From Candidatus Acidiferrales bacterium (GTDB taxonomy: Bacteria > Bacteroidota > Ignavibacteria > Kryptoniales > JAKASW01): a stretch of DNA of 64,000 nucleotides. Shown piece by piece: positions 3,722 through 47,661 of this stretch (its first letter is position 1; the number at the start of each line of letters is the position of its first letter). A program made the position numbers and the translations under genes. The stretch lies in contig DATJAY010000003.1 in NCBI GenBank assembly GCA_035515795.1, forward strand, positions 186,001 through 250,000, read 5' to 3'. The notes under the pieces were generated by a model. That model saw only the letters and a program-made list of their open reading frames with translations. It ran no database searches and was not told the origin of the DNA.

Positions 3722-3943
3722 CTATCTGGTATTCAAGCAAGTACACGTACACATGCAAGGACAGGTGCATGTGCAAGTACAAGTGCAGTTGCATTGGCAA
3801 GCATGGACGTACTCCTCGTTTACAAGCCCTTGTTTCTCAGCGAGAACTATGCATGCAGGTGTGTCCTGTAAAATAAAAGGTCGTACGTCAAACATGCTTG
3901 ATAATGATTCGGTCGTTTTGGTCACCATCACTAAAGCAGACAT
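3722..3943 (-). CDS. Candidate RiPP precursor peptide with alternating Cys tail
   Basis: 73 aa. A Shine-Dalgarno AGGAG lies at 3953-3957 (minus strand), 9 nt before the ATG. Residues 1-46 form a leader-like region (…FDVRPFILQDTPACIVL…NEEYV) followed by a tail of 11 cysteines in strict alternation with one other residue, mostly Thr (HAC-QC-NC-TC…PC-MC-TC-TC) and the end LNTR. The Thr codons vary (ACT, ACA, ACC, ACG) and both TGC and TGT are used, so the pattern is kept at protein level and is not simple DNA slippage. It sits just downstream of a PqqD-like protein and a radical SAM/SPASM enzyme, the usual partners for peptide maturation. I do not recognise this precursor family. Confidence 0.7.
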   Translation of the reverse strand: MSALVMVTKTTESLSSMFDVRPFILQDTPACIVLAEKQGLVNEEYVHACQCNCTCTCTCTCPCMCTCTCLNTR

Positions 3944-4050
3944 TGTTAGTCACTCCTAAGTTCTAAAATTCTGCGGCGAGTTTGATCTCGTAACCGCGGT
4001 CTCTTGTATGTGCCGTTCCTCTCTCAACATTAGTGACGCTACTCCAATTT

Positions 4051-4066
4051 GATGTATGATACAATC
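4051..4066. promoter_or_regulatory. Short palindrome between maturase and precursor genes
   Basis: The 135-bp gap between the radical SAM stop and the precursor start contains the palindrome TGTATgATACA near 4053-4063. It could be an operator or half of a weak hairpin. No convincing -35/-10 pair was found beside it, so this is only a suggestion that the precursor might be controlled separately from the maturase. Confidence 0.2.
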
Positions 4067-4078
4067 GTTTTTCCTTTT

Positions 4079-5125
4079 CTACTTCAAAGGAATTGCACAG
4101 CCGTTTGTTTTCTCAAGTAACGCAAGTCTCGTGTCATCACCAATATCTTCAATTAGTGGGCAAACACCTGAACAAAGAGGTCGGTTTACGCAATCGAGGC
4201 ATACTCCACGAAATTTCCGTTTCTCAACAAGTTGTGGAGATGTCTCCCAAATTTCGCGAAACGACGACGTTCGAACGTTGCCAACTTCCTTCCGATAGAG
4301 AATGCAGTGGAACACCTCCCCTAGCGGAGATATGGCCAGACTAACTGTTCCTGCTCCGCATCCCATCATGTCGGCTGGACCAGTGTGAGCATCGCATCTT
4401 TCGCTCTTGTGTTTGTCCAGCGCTATTCCCTCTGGTGCATCAATATTAATTCTCGTGCCAAAGAGCTGCTTTACTTTATTGTATGCTACACGCAAGAACT
4501 CCGAATCCTCGCCTGACAAGCTAGATCCAGACTGAGAGGCGCGTCCAGTGACACAGACGGGATTCAATCGGATTTCAGTTGCGCCTTCTCGGAGACTCAT
4601 TGCTACAATATCCTCAACTTGATGCAAATTTCGACGCGAAATAGTCGGGCTCACTCCTACAACAGGAACTCCAGCCTCCCTAAAATAGTGAAGGGCCTGG
4701 ACTGCCCGATCAAACGACCCCGGGACACCTCTTATGTCATCATGCACGTCAGCTGTCGCACCGTCGATACTGACCCTCGCAATTGTGACACCAGCCTTTG
4801 CTGTCTCCTTGGCTATTTTCGGAGTGACGAACCAACCGTTAGTAGTCAACATAGTCTCTACGCCGACACGGTGACAGTACTCTAGTAATTCCAAGAAATC
4901 GGGACGCATGAAAGGTTCGCCACCGAGAAAAAAGATATAAAAGATCCCATTTGAGCCAAGGTCATTAATCACTCGGTGGCACTCTTGCGTTGTCAGTTCG
5001 TCTGGGTCCGCCTTGCCAGAAGAAGAGTAACAATACTCACATCTGAGATTGCATCTATATGTTATATCCCACCATACGAAGAGCGGAGCAGAAAGACGTC
5101 TAACCTGTCGCTCCATCATGCCCAT
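4079..5125 (-). CDS. Radical SAM/SPASM peptide maturase
   Basis: 348 aa. The radical SAM cluster motif is CNLRCEYC (Cys25, Cys29, Cys32), preceded by FVWWDITYR as in PqqE/MftC-type enzymes. FLGGEP follows as the SAM-binding GGE motif. The C-terminus carries a SPASM-type set of cysteines for auxiliary Fe-S clusters: GCGAG, FHC, then GVCLDCVNRPLCSGVC and a terminal NGC. Such enzymes use the 5'-deoxyadenosyl radical to make C-S or C-C bonds or to decarboxylate in ribosomal peptides. The start overlaps the end of the PqqD-like gene by 26 bp (or 17 bp if the inner ATG is used). The Cys-rich peptide gene lies 135 bp downstream and is the obvious substrate candidate. Confidence 0.85.
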   Translation of the reverse strand: MGMMERQVRRLSAPLFVWWDITYRCNLRCEYCYSSSGKADPDELTTQECHRVINDLGSNGIFYIFFLGGEPFMRPDFLELLEYCHRVGVETMLTTNGWFVTPKIAKETAKAGVTIARVSIDGATADVHDDIRGVPGSFDRAVQALHYFREAGVPVVGVSPTISRRNLHQVEDIVAMSLREGATEIRLNPVCVTGRASQSGSSLSGEDSEFLRVAYNKVKQLFGTRINIDAPEGIALDKHKSERCDAHTGPADMMGCGAGTVSLAISPLGEVFHCILYRKEVGNVRTSSFREIWETSPQLVEKRKFRGVCLDCVNRPLCSGVCPLIEDIGDDTRLALLEKTNGCAIPLK

Positions 5126-5393
5126 CTCCGCAAATTAGAATTCTTTCATCCCTCATTTTCGCAAGGAATGTCTTTAGGATTTCGAATGTAGCCTTACGCT
5201 CAACTTCGTGTTTCTTGCTCAGGACATTTAAGATGTCTTTCTCAGTGGCCGGTTCTCGGCAGAACTCCAGCACTTCAATCGCGAACGGCGCCAATTTCAA
5301 CACTGAAAAATTCTGCTTGCAAAACAGTAGCCCACCAAACGATTCTCTTCTTAACATAAAGAGTTGACTATTAAATACATATTCTTCACTCAT
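5100..5393 (-). CDS. PqqD/MftB-like RiPP recognition protein
   Basis: 97 aa. The sequence LRRESFGGLLF…LKLAPFAIEVLEF…TEKDILNVLSKKHEVER…FLAKMRDERILI follows the pattern of the PqqD/MftB winged-helix RiPP recognition element: a beta-hairpin with 'R-x-E-x-F-G-G-L-L', a helix with 'L…A…L', then a three-helix bundle ending in '…L-x-x-x-x-I-L-I'. Such proteins bind the leader of a precursor peptide and present it to the radical SAM enzyme. It is the first gene of the cluster and overlaps the radical SAM gene. Confidence 0.75.
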   Translation of the reverse strand: MSEEYVFNSQLFMLRRESFGGLLFCKQNFSVLKLAPFAIEVLEFCREPATEKDILNVLSKKHEVERKATFEILKTFLAKMRDERILICGDGHDGATG

Positions 5394-12455: not shown

Positions 12456-13958
12456 GTGGAGACAAACAAAGCGGTTGGTATCTGGATAAGGGTCTCGACT
12501 GAAGACCAAGCCAAGGGCGAAAGCCCTGAGCACCACGAGAAACGTGCCCGATATTATGCCGAGTCCAAAGGCTGGGACGTTAAAGAGGTGTACCATCTTG
12601 AGGCTGTATCGGGGAAATCTGTTAAGGATCATCCTGAGGCAAGGAGAATGGTTGATGACATCAAATCGGGCCATATCACAGGACTCATCTTCTCGAAGCT
12701 TGCCCGTCTGGCCCGGAACACCAAGGAACTTCTAGAGTTCGCAGACTTCTTCCAGGAGCACAGCGCCGACCTCATCTCACTCCAAGAATCAATTGACACT
12801 TCCACGGCAGCAGGGCGCTTTTTCTATACAATGATTGCTGCTATGGCGCAATGGGAAAGGGAAGAGATTGCCGATAGGGTGGCTGCTTCGGTTCCCATTC
12901 GTGCGAAGTTAGGGAAATCCTTGGGTGGGGAAGCTCCCTATGGCTACCGATATGTGGATAAAAAGCTGGCTCTCGATCCAAAGGAAGCACCGATCAGGAA
13001 ACTGATGTTCGAGTTTTTCAAAGAGCAAAAGCGAAAGCGGAGAGTCTGTCGCCTTCTGAATGAAGCAGGATACCGCACGCGGAGAGGGAACAAGTGGACT
13101 TTCAGCACCGTCTACCGGCTCCTCAGAGATCCCATTGCCAAAGGAATCCGAAGGTCAAACTACAGCACACGAGGCGGAAAGAATTCCGAGAAATATGTTT
13201 TCAAACCCGAATCCGAGTGGATATATACGGAAGCTCCGGCTATTGTTTCCGAAGAACTGTGGAACGAATGTAACGGCATCCTTGATGAACAGATCAAGAC
13301 GAACCGTCCGCCTACCAAGGTGGTCGCCCACCTCTTCACAAGCATCGTCACCTGCGAGTGCGGAGGGAAGATGTACGTTCCCTCAAACAACCCGAAGTAT
13401 GTTTGCCCCAAGTGCCGCAACAAGGTCGGTGAAACTGATCTTGAGGAAATCTTCCGCGAACAACTGAAATCGTTCGTCTTCTCGGAAAGCGAAGTCAAAA
13501 ACTATTTTGAGCAGGCGGATACCGCGCTTAAAGAAAAGGAAGCCATCCTTGCGACACTTATGGACGAGAAAGGAAAGGTGCGGGCGGATATGGAGAAGGT
13601 GATGGAGCTATACCTCAAGGGAGAAATCAAGCCGGAGGGATTCAACCGGCACTACCAACCTTATGATGAACGATACAAGCAGATAACGAAACAAATACCG
13701 GAGGTTCAGGCTGAAATTGATTTTCTCAAAATCCAGTACATCTCAGGCGACGAACTCGTGAACGAAGCCAAAGACCTCTATAGCCGTTGGCCAAACCTCG
13801 AACCTACCGAGAAACGCAAGATCATAGAAACCATTACCGAACGGATCACCGTTGGCAAGGACGATATAAATATCAAACTATCCTATTTACCCTCTTCCGA
13901 ATTGGTGACAGAAGGGCACCAGACCCATCTTGTTCGGGTGATTTCGGGGCGTACATGA
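12456..13958 (+). CDS. Large serine recombinase (integrase of the element)
   Basis: 500 aa from GTG. Resolvase domain: GIWIRVSTEDQ with catalytic Ser14, then FSKLARLARNTKELL and QWEREEIADRV. The recombinase domain follows (APYGYRY…WTFSTVYRLLRDPIAKG), then a zinc ribbon with CECGGKMYV…YVCPKC, then a coiled coil of about 100 residues and a C-terminal tail. Such enzymes integrate and excise elements between short unrelated att sites. The last codons (RVISGRT-stop, about 13932-13958) lie in DNA that also belongs to the disrupted LTD gene, so the C-terminal end seems supplied by the target site. Confidence 0.92.
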   Translation: METNKAVGIWIRVSTEDQAKGESPEHHEKRARYYAESKGWDVKEVYHLEAVSGKSVKDHPEARRMVDDIKSGHITGLIFSKLARLARNTKELLEFADFFQEHSADLISLQESIDTSTAAGRFFYTMIAAMAQWEREEIADRVAASVPIRAKLGKSLGGEAPYGYRYVDKKLALDPKEAPIRKLMFEFFKEQKRKRRVCRLLNEAGYRTRRGNKWTFSTVYRLLRDPIAKGIRRSNYSTRGGKNSEKYVFKPESEWIYTEAPAIVSEELWNECNGILDEQIKTNRPPTKVVAHLFTSIVTCECGGKMYVPSNNPKYVCPKCRNKVGETDLEEIFREQLKSFVFSESEVKNYFEQADTALKEKEAILATLMDEKGKVRADMEKVMELYLKGEIKPEGFNRHYQPYDERYKQITKQIPEVQAEIDFLKIQYISGDELVNEAKDLYSRWPNLEPTEKRKIIETITERITVGKDDINIKLSYLPSSELVTEGHQTHLVRVISGRT

Positions 13959-35552: not shown

Positions 35553-35825
35553 CGGAAGATACCGCCAAACGCTGCGACAGTGCTTCCGAGTGCTGCGACA
35601 ACACTTCCGAGCGTTCAGACAGTCGTTCCAAACGCTGCGACAACACTTCCGAGCGTTCAGACAAGTCTTCCGAGCGCTGCGGCAACTGTTCCGAACACTC
35701 AGACAAGTATTCCGAGTGCTGCGGCAACTGTTCCGAATGCCCGGACAAGTCTTCCGGATGCTCAGACAGCCTTTCCGGACATTACGACATTCGCTCCAAA
35801 CGCCCAGACATGGAATCCAAAGGGC
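35553..35825. repeat. 21-bp tandem repeat, about 13 units
   Basis: Units alternate between two types, GCGACAACACTTCCGAGCGTT-like (first 20 bases shared) and CAGACAAGTCTTCCGAGCGC-like, giving a 42-bp higher-order period with drift toward the right end. The unit is a multiple of three and lacks stops in several frames, so heptapeptide repeats can be read on both strands (P-S-A-A-T-T-L on +, S-E-x-L-S-x-R on -). None of these frames has a start signal I believe, so I treat it as non-coding or of unknown coding status. Confidence 0.8.
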
Positions 35826-36029
35826 AAGGAGGAATGCTCAAGCGGGTTCTTCCGTCGAAAAAGGATGTCTTACATGGTTCCGGGGATTGGGTATTGTGCA
35901 TCAGTCTCAGATTAGTTCGGGATTGTTTAGCGGACTCCATCTCAAATCATTCAAACAGAGCATACCTGTGATTCCCGCCTGCTCCCGGGGAGAATCTATC
36001 CCTGAGGCAGCGGCTCGGTTTGAAAACAC

Positions 36030-36067
36030 AGAGACCGCACCAGCGGGGTGCTGATGCGGTCATTTTT
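36030..36067 (+). terminator. Strong hairpin terminator
   Basis: GACCGCACCAGC / GCTGATGCGGTC stem (one mismatch) with a short loop followed by ATTTTT. No convincing gene lies just upstream, so it may end a transcript through the tandem repeat. Confidence 0.65.
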
Positions 36068-46231: not shown

Positions 46232-46266
46232 TGGCGTTACACTAATACTTGAAAGGGAAAAGTCCC

Positions 46267-47661
46267 ATGCTTGCAATTCGTTCTATTTTATTTATGACCT
46301 TGTTCTCTTTGCTTGTCAGCTTCTTGATGGGTTGCACATCAGCAATTGAGGATGAGGATTGGCGAGTCCGCAAAGCCGCTGTCGAGAAGCTAACTGAACA
46401 AGAGGTTCTGGCCAAAGTTGCGATTGAGGACACAGTCTCTGATGTCCGTGAAGCTGCTGTCAAGAAGCTTACCGATCAGGCAATTCTTACCAAGGTTGCG
46501 ATTGAAGACACAGTCTCTGATGTCCGTGAAGCTGCTGTCGAGAAGCTTACCGATCAGGCAATTCTTACCAAGGTTGCGATTGAAGACACGGTCTCTGATG
46601 TCCGCAAGGCCGCTGTTACCAAGCTAACCGATCAGGCAGCGCTGGCAAGGGTGGCGACTCAGGACAGGAACGAATATGTCCGTCAATCGGCTATCTATGA
46701 ACTCATCGACCAGTCACTGCTGGCTAAGGTAGCTATCGAGGATAGGCAAGAGGACGATTGGGGAGTTCGTCAGTCCGCTGTCAATAGGCTCACCGATCAG
46801 TCACTGCTGGCTAAGATTGCCATTGAGGCCGATGATTGGCGAGTTCGCGAAGCCGCTGTCGAGAAGCTCACCGGACAGGATGTTCTGATCAAGGTTGCGG
46901 TTGAAGACAAGGATCTGTATGTCCGCCAAACTGCTGTCGAAAAGCTCACTGACCAGTCGGTACTAGCCAAGTTTGTAGCTAAGGGCAATAATTGGGTTAT
47001 CCGCAAAGCTGCTGTCAAGAACCTCATGGACCAAGTGCTATTGGCAAAGCTTGCAATCGAGGACGATGATTGGCAAGTCCGCGAAGCCGCCGTCGAGAAA
47101 CTCACGGATGAGGCACTGCTGACTAAAATTGCTGTCGGGGATAGGCGGGAGGACGTTCGTGTCATTGCTATCAACAAGCTCGCAGAATCGGCAATCCAAG
47201 GTGAAAATTCGGAGGTCTGTCAATCCGCTGTCAATGAGCTCACCGATCAGGCACTGCTGGCCAAGATTGCTATTGAGAACGGTGATTGGCAGGTCCGCGA
47301 AGCCGCTGTTAGGAAGCTTACTGATGAGGAAATGCTGGCCAAAGTTGCGATTGAGGGTTTGGATTTGAATGCCGGGCAAGCCGCTCTCGAGAAGATTTCC
47401 AATGAAGAAGTGGTGGCCAAAGTGGCGATTGAGGATGACCATATTGATTATTATGTCCGCGAAGCCGCCGCCAAGAAACTTACCGATGAGAACGCGGTAG
47501 CCAAAGTGGCTATCAACGGCAAACATTGGGATGTCCGTGCAATAGCCGTCACTAAGCTTACAGATCAGACGCTGCTAACTAAGATTGCTATCGAGGACAT
47601 GGATGAGTTTGTCAGGCAAGCCGCTAATAATCGAATCAGAGAACTTGTAGGTGAGCGATAA
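46267..47661 (+). CDS. HEAT-like repeat lipoprotein with about 16 repeats of 26 residues
   Basis: 464 aa from the ATG at 46267. Lipobox FLMGC at about residue 22. The rest is a chain of roughly sixteen 26-residue helical units of the type 'A-I-E-D-x-x-x-x-V-R-x-A-A-V-x-K-L-T-D-Q-x-L-L-x-K-V', a HEAT or leucine-rich-variant type solenoid. Repeats 2 to 4 are nearly identical at DNA level (78-bp period, about 46426-46630), a sign of recent expansion. Probably a lipid-anchored protein-binding scaffold. Confidence 0.8.
   Translation: MLAIRSILFMTLFSLLVSFLMGCTSAIEDEDWRVRKAAVEKLTEQEVLAKVAIEDTVSDVREAAVKKLTDQAILTKVAIEDTVSDVREAAVEKLTDQAILTKVAIEDTVSDVRKAAVTKLTDQAALARVATQDRNEYVRQSAIYELIDQSLLAKVAIEDRQEDDWGVRQSAVNRLTDQSLLAKIAIEADDWRVREAAVEKLTGQDVLIKVAVEDKDLYVRQTAVEKLTDQSVLAKFVAKGNNWVIRKAAVKNLMDQVLLAKLAIEDDDWQVREAAVEKLTDEALLTKIAVGDRREDVRVIAINKLAESAIQGENSEVCQSAVNELTDQALLAKIAIENGDWQVREAAVRKLTDEEMLAKVAIEGLDLNAGQAALEKISNEEVVAKVAIEDDHIDYYVREAAAKKLTDENAVAKVAINGKHWDVRAIAVTKLTDQTLLTKIAIEDMDEFVRQAANNRIRELVGER
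46426..46630 (+). repeat. 78-bp coding tandem repeat
   Basis: Three consecutive, nearly identical copies encoding IEDTVSDVREAAVKKLTDQ-type units. The later units in the gene are much more diverged. Confidence 0.8.

Follow-up and report, generated by a model that had tools for sequence, protein, structure and literature searches.

On the minus strand of a 64,000-nt stretch of contig DATJAY010000003.1 of Candidatus Acidiferrales bacterium (GCA_035515795.1, positions 186,001-250,000; hereafter the window) we found five genes in the order P0003, P0002, P0001, P0004 and P0005. P0003 (5100..5393, 97 aa) encodes a likely PqqD-like stand-alone RRE and overlaps by 26 nt with P0002 (4079..5125, 348 aa), which encodes a radical SAM/SPASM enzyme and likely peptide cross-linker. 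After a gap of about 135 nt follows P0001 (3722..3943 including the stop codon), a precursor-like ORF of 73 aa with an AGGAG ribosome-binding site at 3953..3957, 9 nt ahead of its ATG. A further 51 nt separate P0001 from a gene for a Ser/Thr-type protein kinase (P0004, 2843..3670), which is overlapped by a gene for a dual-specificity-type phosphatase (P0005, 2295..2846). The initial annotation had described overlapping RRE and radical SAM/SPASM genes followed on the same strand by a 73-aa ORF with a good Shine-Dalgarno site, and the coordinates confirmed this arrangement. We recognised neither a protease nor an exporter within the operon or in its vicinity, Rfam gave no matches, and none of the promoter or terminator candidates was convincing.

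The P0001 product has the sequence MSALVMVTKTTESLSSMFDVRPFILQDTPACIVLAEKQGLVNEEYVHA-CQCNCTCTCTCTCPCMCTCTC-LNTR and can be divided into a leader-like part (residues 1-48, 3943-3800) and a tail (residues 49-73, 3799-3725). Eleven of its 12 Cys alternate strictly with other residues in a ladder, CQCNCTCTCTCTCPCMCTCTC, at residues 49-69 (3737..3799), while the twelfth lies in the leader. The residues between the Cys are Q,N,T,T,T,T,P,M,T,T, hence mainly Thr as had been noted before, and four residues follow the ladder. With a 48-aa leader-like part and a 25-aa Cys tail near a maturase gene, P0001 has the makeup expected of a RiPP precursor, and it matched no NCBIfam or Pfam family at E values up to 1. 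On the DNA level the ladder is a degenerate 6-nt repeat, and most (CX)n matches in other genomes were microsatellites or antisense, so that P0001 might be no gene at all and merely a low-complexity repeat that is open by chance. We regard this as highly improbable given the ribosome-binding site, the leader-like N-terminus and the operon position of P0001. Moreover, the Cys codons of the ladder differ at position 3 alone (4/11 vs. 0/22, Fisher p = 0.008), and both Cys codons and all four Thr codons (ACT, ACA, ACC, ACG) occur. This synonymous variation indicates selection on the protein and argues against a DNA repeat; an origin of the ladder as a microsatellite was rejected on account of the codon pattern.

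A pattern of eight alternating Cys had a single site in the 4.08-Mb genome, and among 395 genomes of the phylum the remaining matches were mostly simple repeats. None of the codon-diverse ladders checked in the phylum had a radical SAM neighbour, and the candidates in genomes G440, G441, G304 and G371 were rejected for the lack of a ladder ORF adjoining a radical SAM gene. Only one of the codon-diverse phylum ladders read was gene-like, a 48-aa Cys-rich precursor-like ORF, MKLNFKIVSDEACDVSHPSITIARPKCKCNCDCSCCCCCSCCCSCNSA, near MoaD/MoaE-like genes (L047:6528-6674, genome G310), and no radical SAM neighbour was seen there.

P0002 matched the Pfam domains Radical_SAM (8.9e-30) and SPASM (9.8e-8) above cut-off, and it carries the RS motif C25xxxC29xxC32 as well as the complete set of seven SPASM Cys (256/274/309/312/318/322/343), in agreement with its first assignment as a radical SAM/SPASM enzyme. 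The nearest PDB entry was SkfB (3e-24), and further near matches were PqqE, cytosylglucuronate decarboxylase, SuiB and CteB. Domains, Cys set and nearest structures are together those of a peptide-modifying SPASM enzyme. Nevertheless, P0002 remained under every NCBIfam cut-off shown, including those for sactipeptide and ranthipeptide maturases (score/cut-off: SkfB 100/300, AlbA 79.9/850, StsB 135.7/625, PapB 92.1/340). Its best NCBIfam match was MftC with 194.7 bits (cut-off 265), and the mycofactocin system (MftA/MftB/MftC) also resembles P0003/P0002 in having a PqqD-like protein gene that overlaps the SPASM gene. Mycofactocin identity was still rejected, as MftC and MftB (13.8 vs. 33) both stayed below cut-off and there was no MftA-like precursor. 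A genuine mftC (L012) has adjoining mycofactocin partner genes, whereas the P0002 locus has none.

The match of P0003 to Pfam PqqD was weak (E 4e-4, 21.1 bits, below the cut-off of 23.4). Modelling with AF2 gave a low-confidence structure (mean pLDDT 58) with strands followed by three helices, as in an RRE, and RRE domains headed the list of PDB matches with Z values from 6.6 to about 4 (CteB 6.6, TbiB1 6.3, lasso B1 5.8, SuiB 5.3, PqqD 4.8); ThcOx, TigE, LynD and MccB were also found. Z values under 8 can be common and are alone no proof of an RRE, and our reading rests on the uniform identity of the PDB matches, not on the values themselves. On the weak PqqD match and this RRE-dominated list we accepted P0003 as an RRE; going by the model, it is likely a stand-alone PqqD-like RRE that would bind the leader. 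This is in line with the PqqD/MftB-like recognition protein proposed in the initial annotation.

The gene set resembles those of sactipeptides and ranthipeptides (SkfA/SkfB, subtilosin/AlbA, freyrasin/PapB, SCIFF), which likewise combine a small Cys precursor with a SPASM enzyme and an RRE, but in these precursors the Cys are further apart than in P0001, and P0002 lies under the curated cut-offs shown. SCIFF has six Cys in 45 residues, and in freyrasin Cys is linked to Asp; we know of no sacti- or ranthipeptide precursor with Cys at every second residue. A repeat-tailed substrate with a SPASM maturase is also described by the NCBIfam families for CXXX-repeat, CefB (Cys-every-fifth), ACGX and His-Xaa-Ser systems, but their repeat units are other than Cys-X and P0001 matches no family; specifically, it had no match to the SCIFF, CXXX-repeat, CefB and ACGX precursor families. 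The statement that known families place their Cys at other spacings held, going by their names, for the curated families that scored below cut-off (SCIFF, CXXX, Cys-every-fifth, ACGX). The nearest published repeat we found is an Asp-Cys motif occurring up to six times in peptides of SSN clusters 59 and 115, which are predicted radical SAM RiPPs and, in cluster 59, occur with a recombinase (PMC9062424). Both peptides repeat a two-residue Cys motif, Asp-Cys there and Cys-Thr in P0001, and no mention is made there of an RRE, kinase or phosphatase, unlike what is present in the P0001 operon.

IMG/VR and about 85,000 genomes were searched with a degenerate C-x-(CT)3-C-x-C pattern that also fits P0001, yielding 22 and 56 stretches, respectively. 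Among the viral stretches, 17 of 22 formed the C-terminus of an ORF, and a radical SAM gene adjoined wherever the downstream sequence sufficed. Six genome stretches combined a C-terminal ladder with a radical SAM gene, five from Omnitrophota, among them the Ca. Velamenicoccus archaeovorus chromosome, and one from a Bacillota bacterium. One such ladder, CECECTCTCTCTCTCTCTCTC, lies close to the end of a 191-aa protein; two others, CGCTCTCTCTCNC and CNCTCTCTCTCTCTCTCTCTC, terminate an 814-aa tail-collar fibre protein (PF12571, E 3e-45) and a 979-aa protein, respectively, the latter followed by three radical SAM genes. The ladder proteins (phage or prophage) belong to five unrelated families, and BLAST clustering separated the radical SAM proteins into at least ten groups. 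The phage ladder proteins are of virion type and thus differ from free peptides, and we noticed no separate RRE next to them. Overall, a radical SAM gene was present at 22 of 41 loci with a C-terminal ladder ORF and at 2 of 247 without (odds ratio 142, Fisher p = 1e-19), the latter being loci fetched by the same ladder patterns. Many ladder loci are relatives and not independent, so this p value overstates the evidence.

Because (CX)n tails recur beside SPASM enzymes elsewhere, the ladder is a likely substrate of P0002, and we consider it quite probable that P0001 is modified by this enzyme. CXC repeats are also typical metal-binding motifs, no product of P0001 is known, and the 48-aa Cys-rich ORF mentioned above stands without a radical SAM neighbour; P0001 could accordingly be a metal-binding (metallothionein-like) or redox peptide that stays unmodified, with P0002 and P0003 acting elsewhere. 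This seems unlikely to us, since the ladder of P0001 comes after RRE and SPASM genes of the peptide-modifying type, similar ladders are found together with SPASM enzymes far more often than in the background, and no metallothionein family of Pfam or NCBIfam matched.

Not all ladders had such a neighbour: the Paenibacillus ladder and several Actinacidiphila ladders were rejected, as no radical SAM gene lay beside them. Two looser ladder patterns gave mostly simple repeats among the matches listed, and strict ladders were absent from those regions that were read in deposited phage records with relatives of the ladder enzymes. Beside some ladder proteins and SPASM enzymes we observed radical SAM proteins of the B12-binding type (L064:2898-4247, by Pfam match, and L219:2025-3410, by eye), which hints at a further modification, for example methylation. 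A SCIFF-like peptide, MKHIKTLNTRKLQNTVKKGGCGECQTSCQSACKTSCTVGNQTCEHCK, was found beside a radical SAM match at L349:7522-7665, on a scaffold that was deposited as phage and may be bacterial.

For a test independent of the ladder, IMG/VR was searched with the sequence of a ladder-associated SPASM enzyme. A Cys-repeat tail, here an ORF with Cys crowded into its last 70 residues, was present at 49 of 79 phage SPASM loci, in all 49 cases on the strand of the enzyme, compared with 36 of 215 control loci free of radical SAM genes, which are themselves enriched for Cys-like repeats. About ten of the 49 tails were strict ladders already found by pattern, and the others showed other periods (CTCNCNY, CPCNCNF, CETGCEVT, CNTCQNC, GCSGTCGG). 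For this reason the strict ladder looks like one form of a wider class of Cys-repeat tails, as far as can be judged from sequence. Several phage SPASM loci carried two to four radical SAM genes. Across loci L378-L446 we observed phage structural-type proteins with C-terminal Cys-repeat tails adjoining one to four radical SAM/SPASM genes, for example at L431:9042-9719, L437:2822-3433, L440:1591-3438, L394:1321-3780 and L386:6088-7638.

For the ladder enzymes of the main cluster PapB was the top-scoring model (E 1e-61 and 6e-72, below cut-off), followed by the CXXX-repeat, QhpD and SCIFF maturases, and phage-type ladder enzymes also scored, below cut-off, against the CXXX-repeat, CefB, ACGX and His-Xaa-Ser models. 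Their identity to P0002 is only about 20-24% over long alignments, which counts against a shared chemistry. PapB and the SCIFF maturase form thioethers; MftC is not a thioether enzyme. The best NCBIfam match of P0002 being MftC, the ladder might be modified by other chemistry, such as C-C links, epimerisation, oxidation of Thr or the backbone, or mycofactocin-like cofactor formation, and radical SAM RiPP enzymes are described that also form C-C bonds and cyclopropanes (PMC9062424, PMC8326336). We find such chemistry fairly unlikely, as eleven alternating Cys point to sulfur chemistry and the phage counterparts resemble the thioether enzymes PapB and SCIFF maturase.

Thioether cross-links of Cys to the intervening residues are thus inferred to be the most likely chemistry, although no product was measured. 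By analogy with SkfB, CteB and PapB, P0003 would bind the 48-residue leader-like N-terminus of P0001 and present the C-terminal ladder to P0002, which would abstract hydrogen from the residues between the Cys, mostly Thr. A Cys sulfur would then add to that carbon (Calpha or Cbeta), giving several thioether bonds, and repetition along the ladder might load the peptide with many small thioether rings. Thioether formation at Thr, Asn and Asp is already known (review PMC8326336). C-C bonds or oxidation remain possible instead. The reading of the locus as a radical SAM RiPP pathway with leader binding, modification and substrate, as initially proposed, gained support from the RRE model, the SPASM Cys set and the recurrent ladders, while its chemistry remained without demonstration. 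Of the proposed undescribed RiPP class, the new substrate pattern stands, whereas the kind of pathway is an ordinary radical SAM RiPP. The full reading, a radical SAM RiPP pathway with a new substrate pattern and thioether chemistry, appears reasonably probable to us in the absence of any measured product. If cross-linked, the strictly alternating Cys tail would be the densest radical SAM cross-link array known to us, and the system comprises only three genes and can be expressed.

The association of Cys tails and radical SAM genes at phage tail proteins suggests largely undescribed protein cross-linking. More tentatively, and without claiming it as the likelier case, we propose that Cys-repeat tails are a general SPASM substrate module, which phages fuse to tail-fibre or virion proteins and accompany with one to four radical SAM enzymes, and that the window operon, on its bacterial island, uses this chemistry in a free-peptide form guided by an RRE. 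If true, there would be phage virions with enzymatically cross-linked tips or stalks, and the wider pattern leads to the testable claim that some phage tail proteins are matured by radical SAM enzymes. No papers on Cys-repeat phage protein tails with radical SAM enzymes were found in a search confined to an open-access collection without preprints, hence to only part of the literature. This extension, a wider and stranger pattern, may be more novel than the operon in the window.

No ortholog of the full gene set was found among the genomes, plasmids and phage records searched. The best match of P0002 in 100 relatives, 395 genomes of the phylum, plasmids, phages and viral contigs was a real mftC with 37.5% identity, and P0002 was missing from 12 genomes of the same genus. 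Its relatives within the phylum (about 28-32%) often adjoin a ferredoxin-like ORF, not a ladder. P0001 and P0003 had no match in plasmids. In 295 other genomes of the phylum the kinase P0004 lacked homologs (E below 1e-15), the phosphatase P0005 had no match in plasmids and 196 genomes of relatives, and the searches with both revealed no conserved partner. With P0002, kinase and phosphatase lacking close relatives in the genomes sampled, the gene set is a singleton so far, which is the main weakness of our case. Of the expected recurrence of the ladder beside orthologous SPASM genes, what was observed is a recurrence of (CX)n tails beside other SPASM enzymes, no ortholog of this set having been found.

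Kinase and phosphatase are probably part of the P0001 transcription unit. P0004 matched Pkinase (4e-12), has YRDFYDHHV in place of the usual HRDxxxxN and resembles WaaP/Kdo-type kinases. P0005 matched CDKN3 (8e-14) and PTP-SAK (2.3e-7) and carries the motif HCxxGxxRS. Speculatively, the two might exert control over the peptide or its target. The genes flanking the operon encode DUF932, a PD-(D/E)XK nuclease, a SymE-like protein, a TraD-like ATPase, a HEPN protein and a SET-domain protein, and large serine recombinases are encoded at 12456-13958 within the window and about 2.3-4.1 kb to its left. From this gene content we read the operon as lying on a putative serine-recombinase mobile island. 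As this island carries defence-type genes, the peptide could plausibly have an antagonistic or regulatory function. A prophage origin of the locus was rejected, as the genes from about 40 kb to the left as far as the integrase include serine recombinases and defence-type genes; in this region, mostly read by eye, no tail module was recognisable.

Near the recombinases, about 13.5-9.9 kb left of the window (L350:6525-10130), QueC-like and nitroreductase-like genes were recognised by eye, and this same-strand cluster is possibly another island pathway. Within the window, a 78-nt (26-aa) unit is repeated about a dozen times (46342-47596) in an ORF at 46249-47661, and a separate 63-nt repeat occurs in seven dispersed copies over 43.2-52.7 kb. 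A further ORF at 35590-36054 consists of LRQxFRAxRQ-type repeats and is likely low-complexity sequence.
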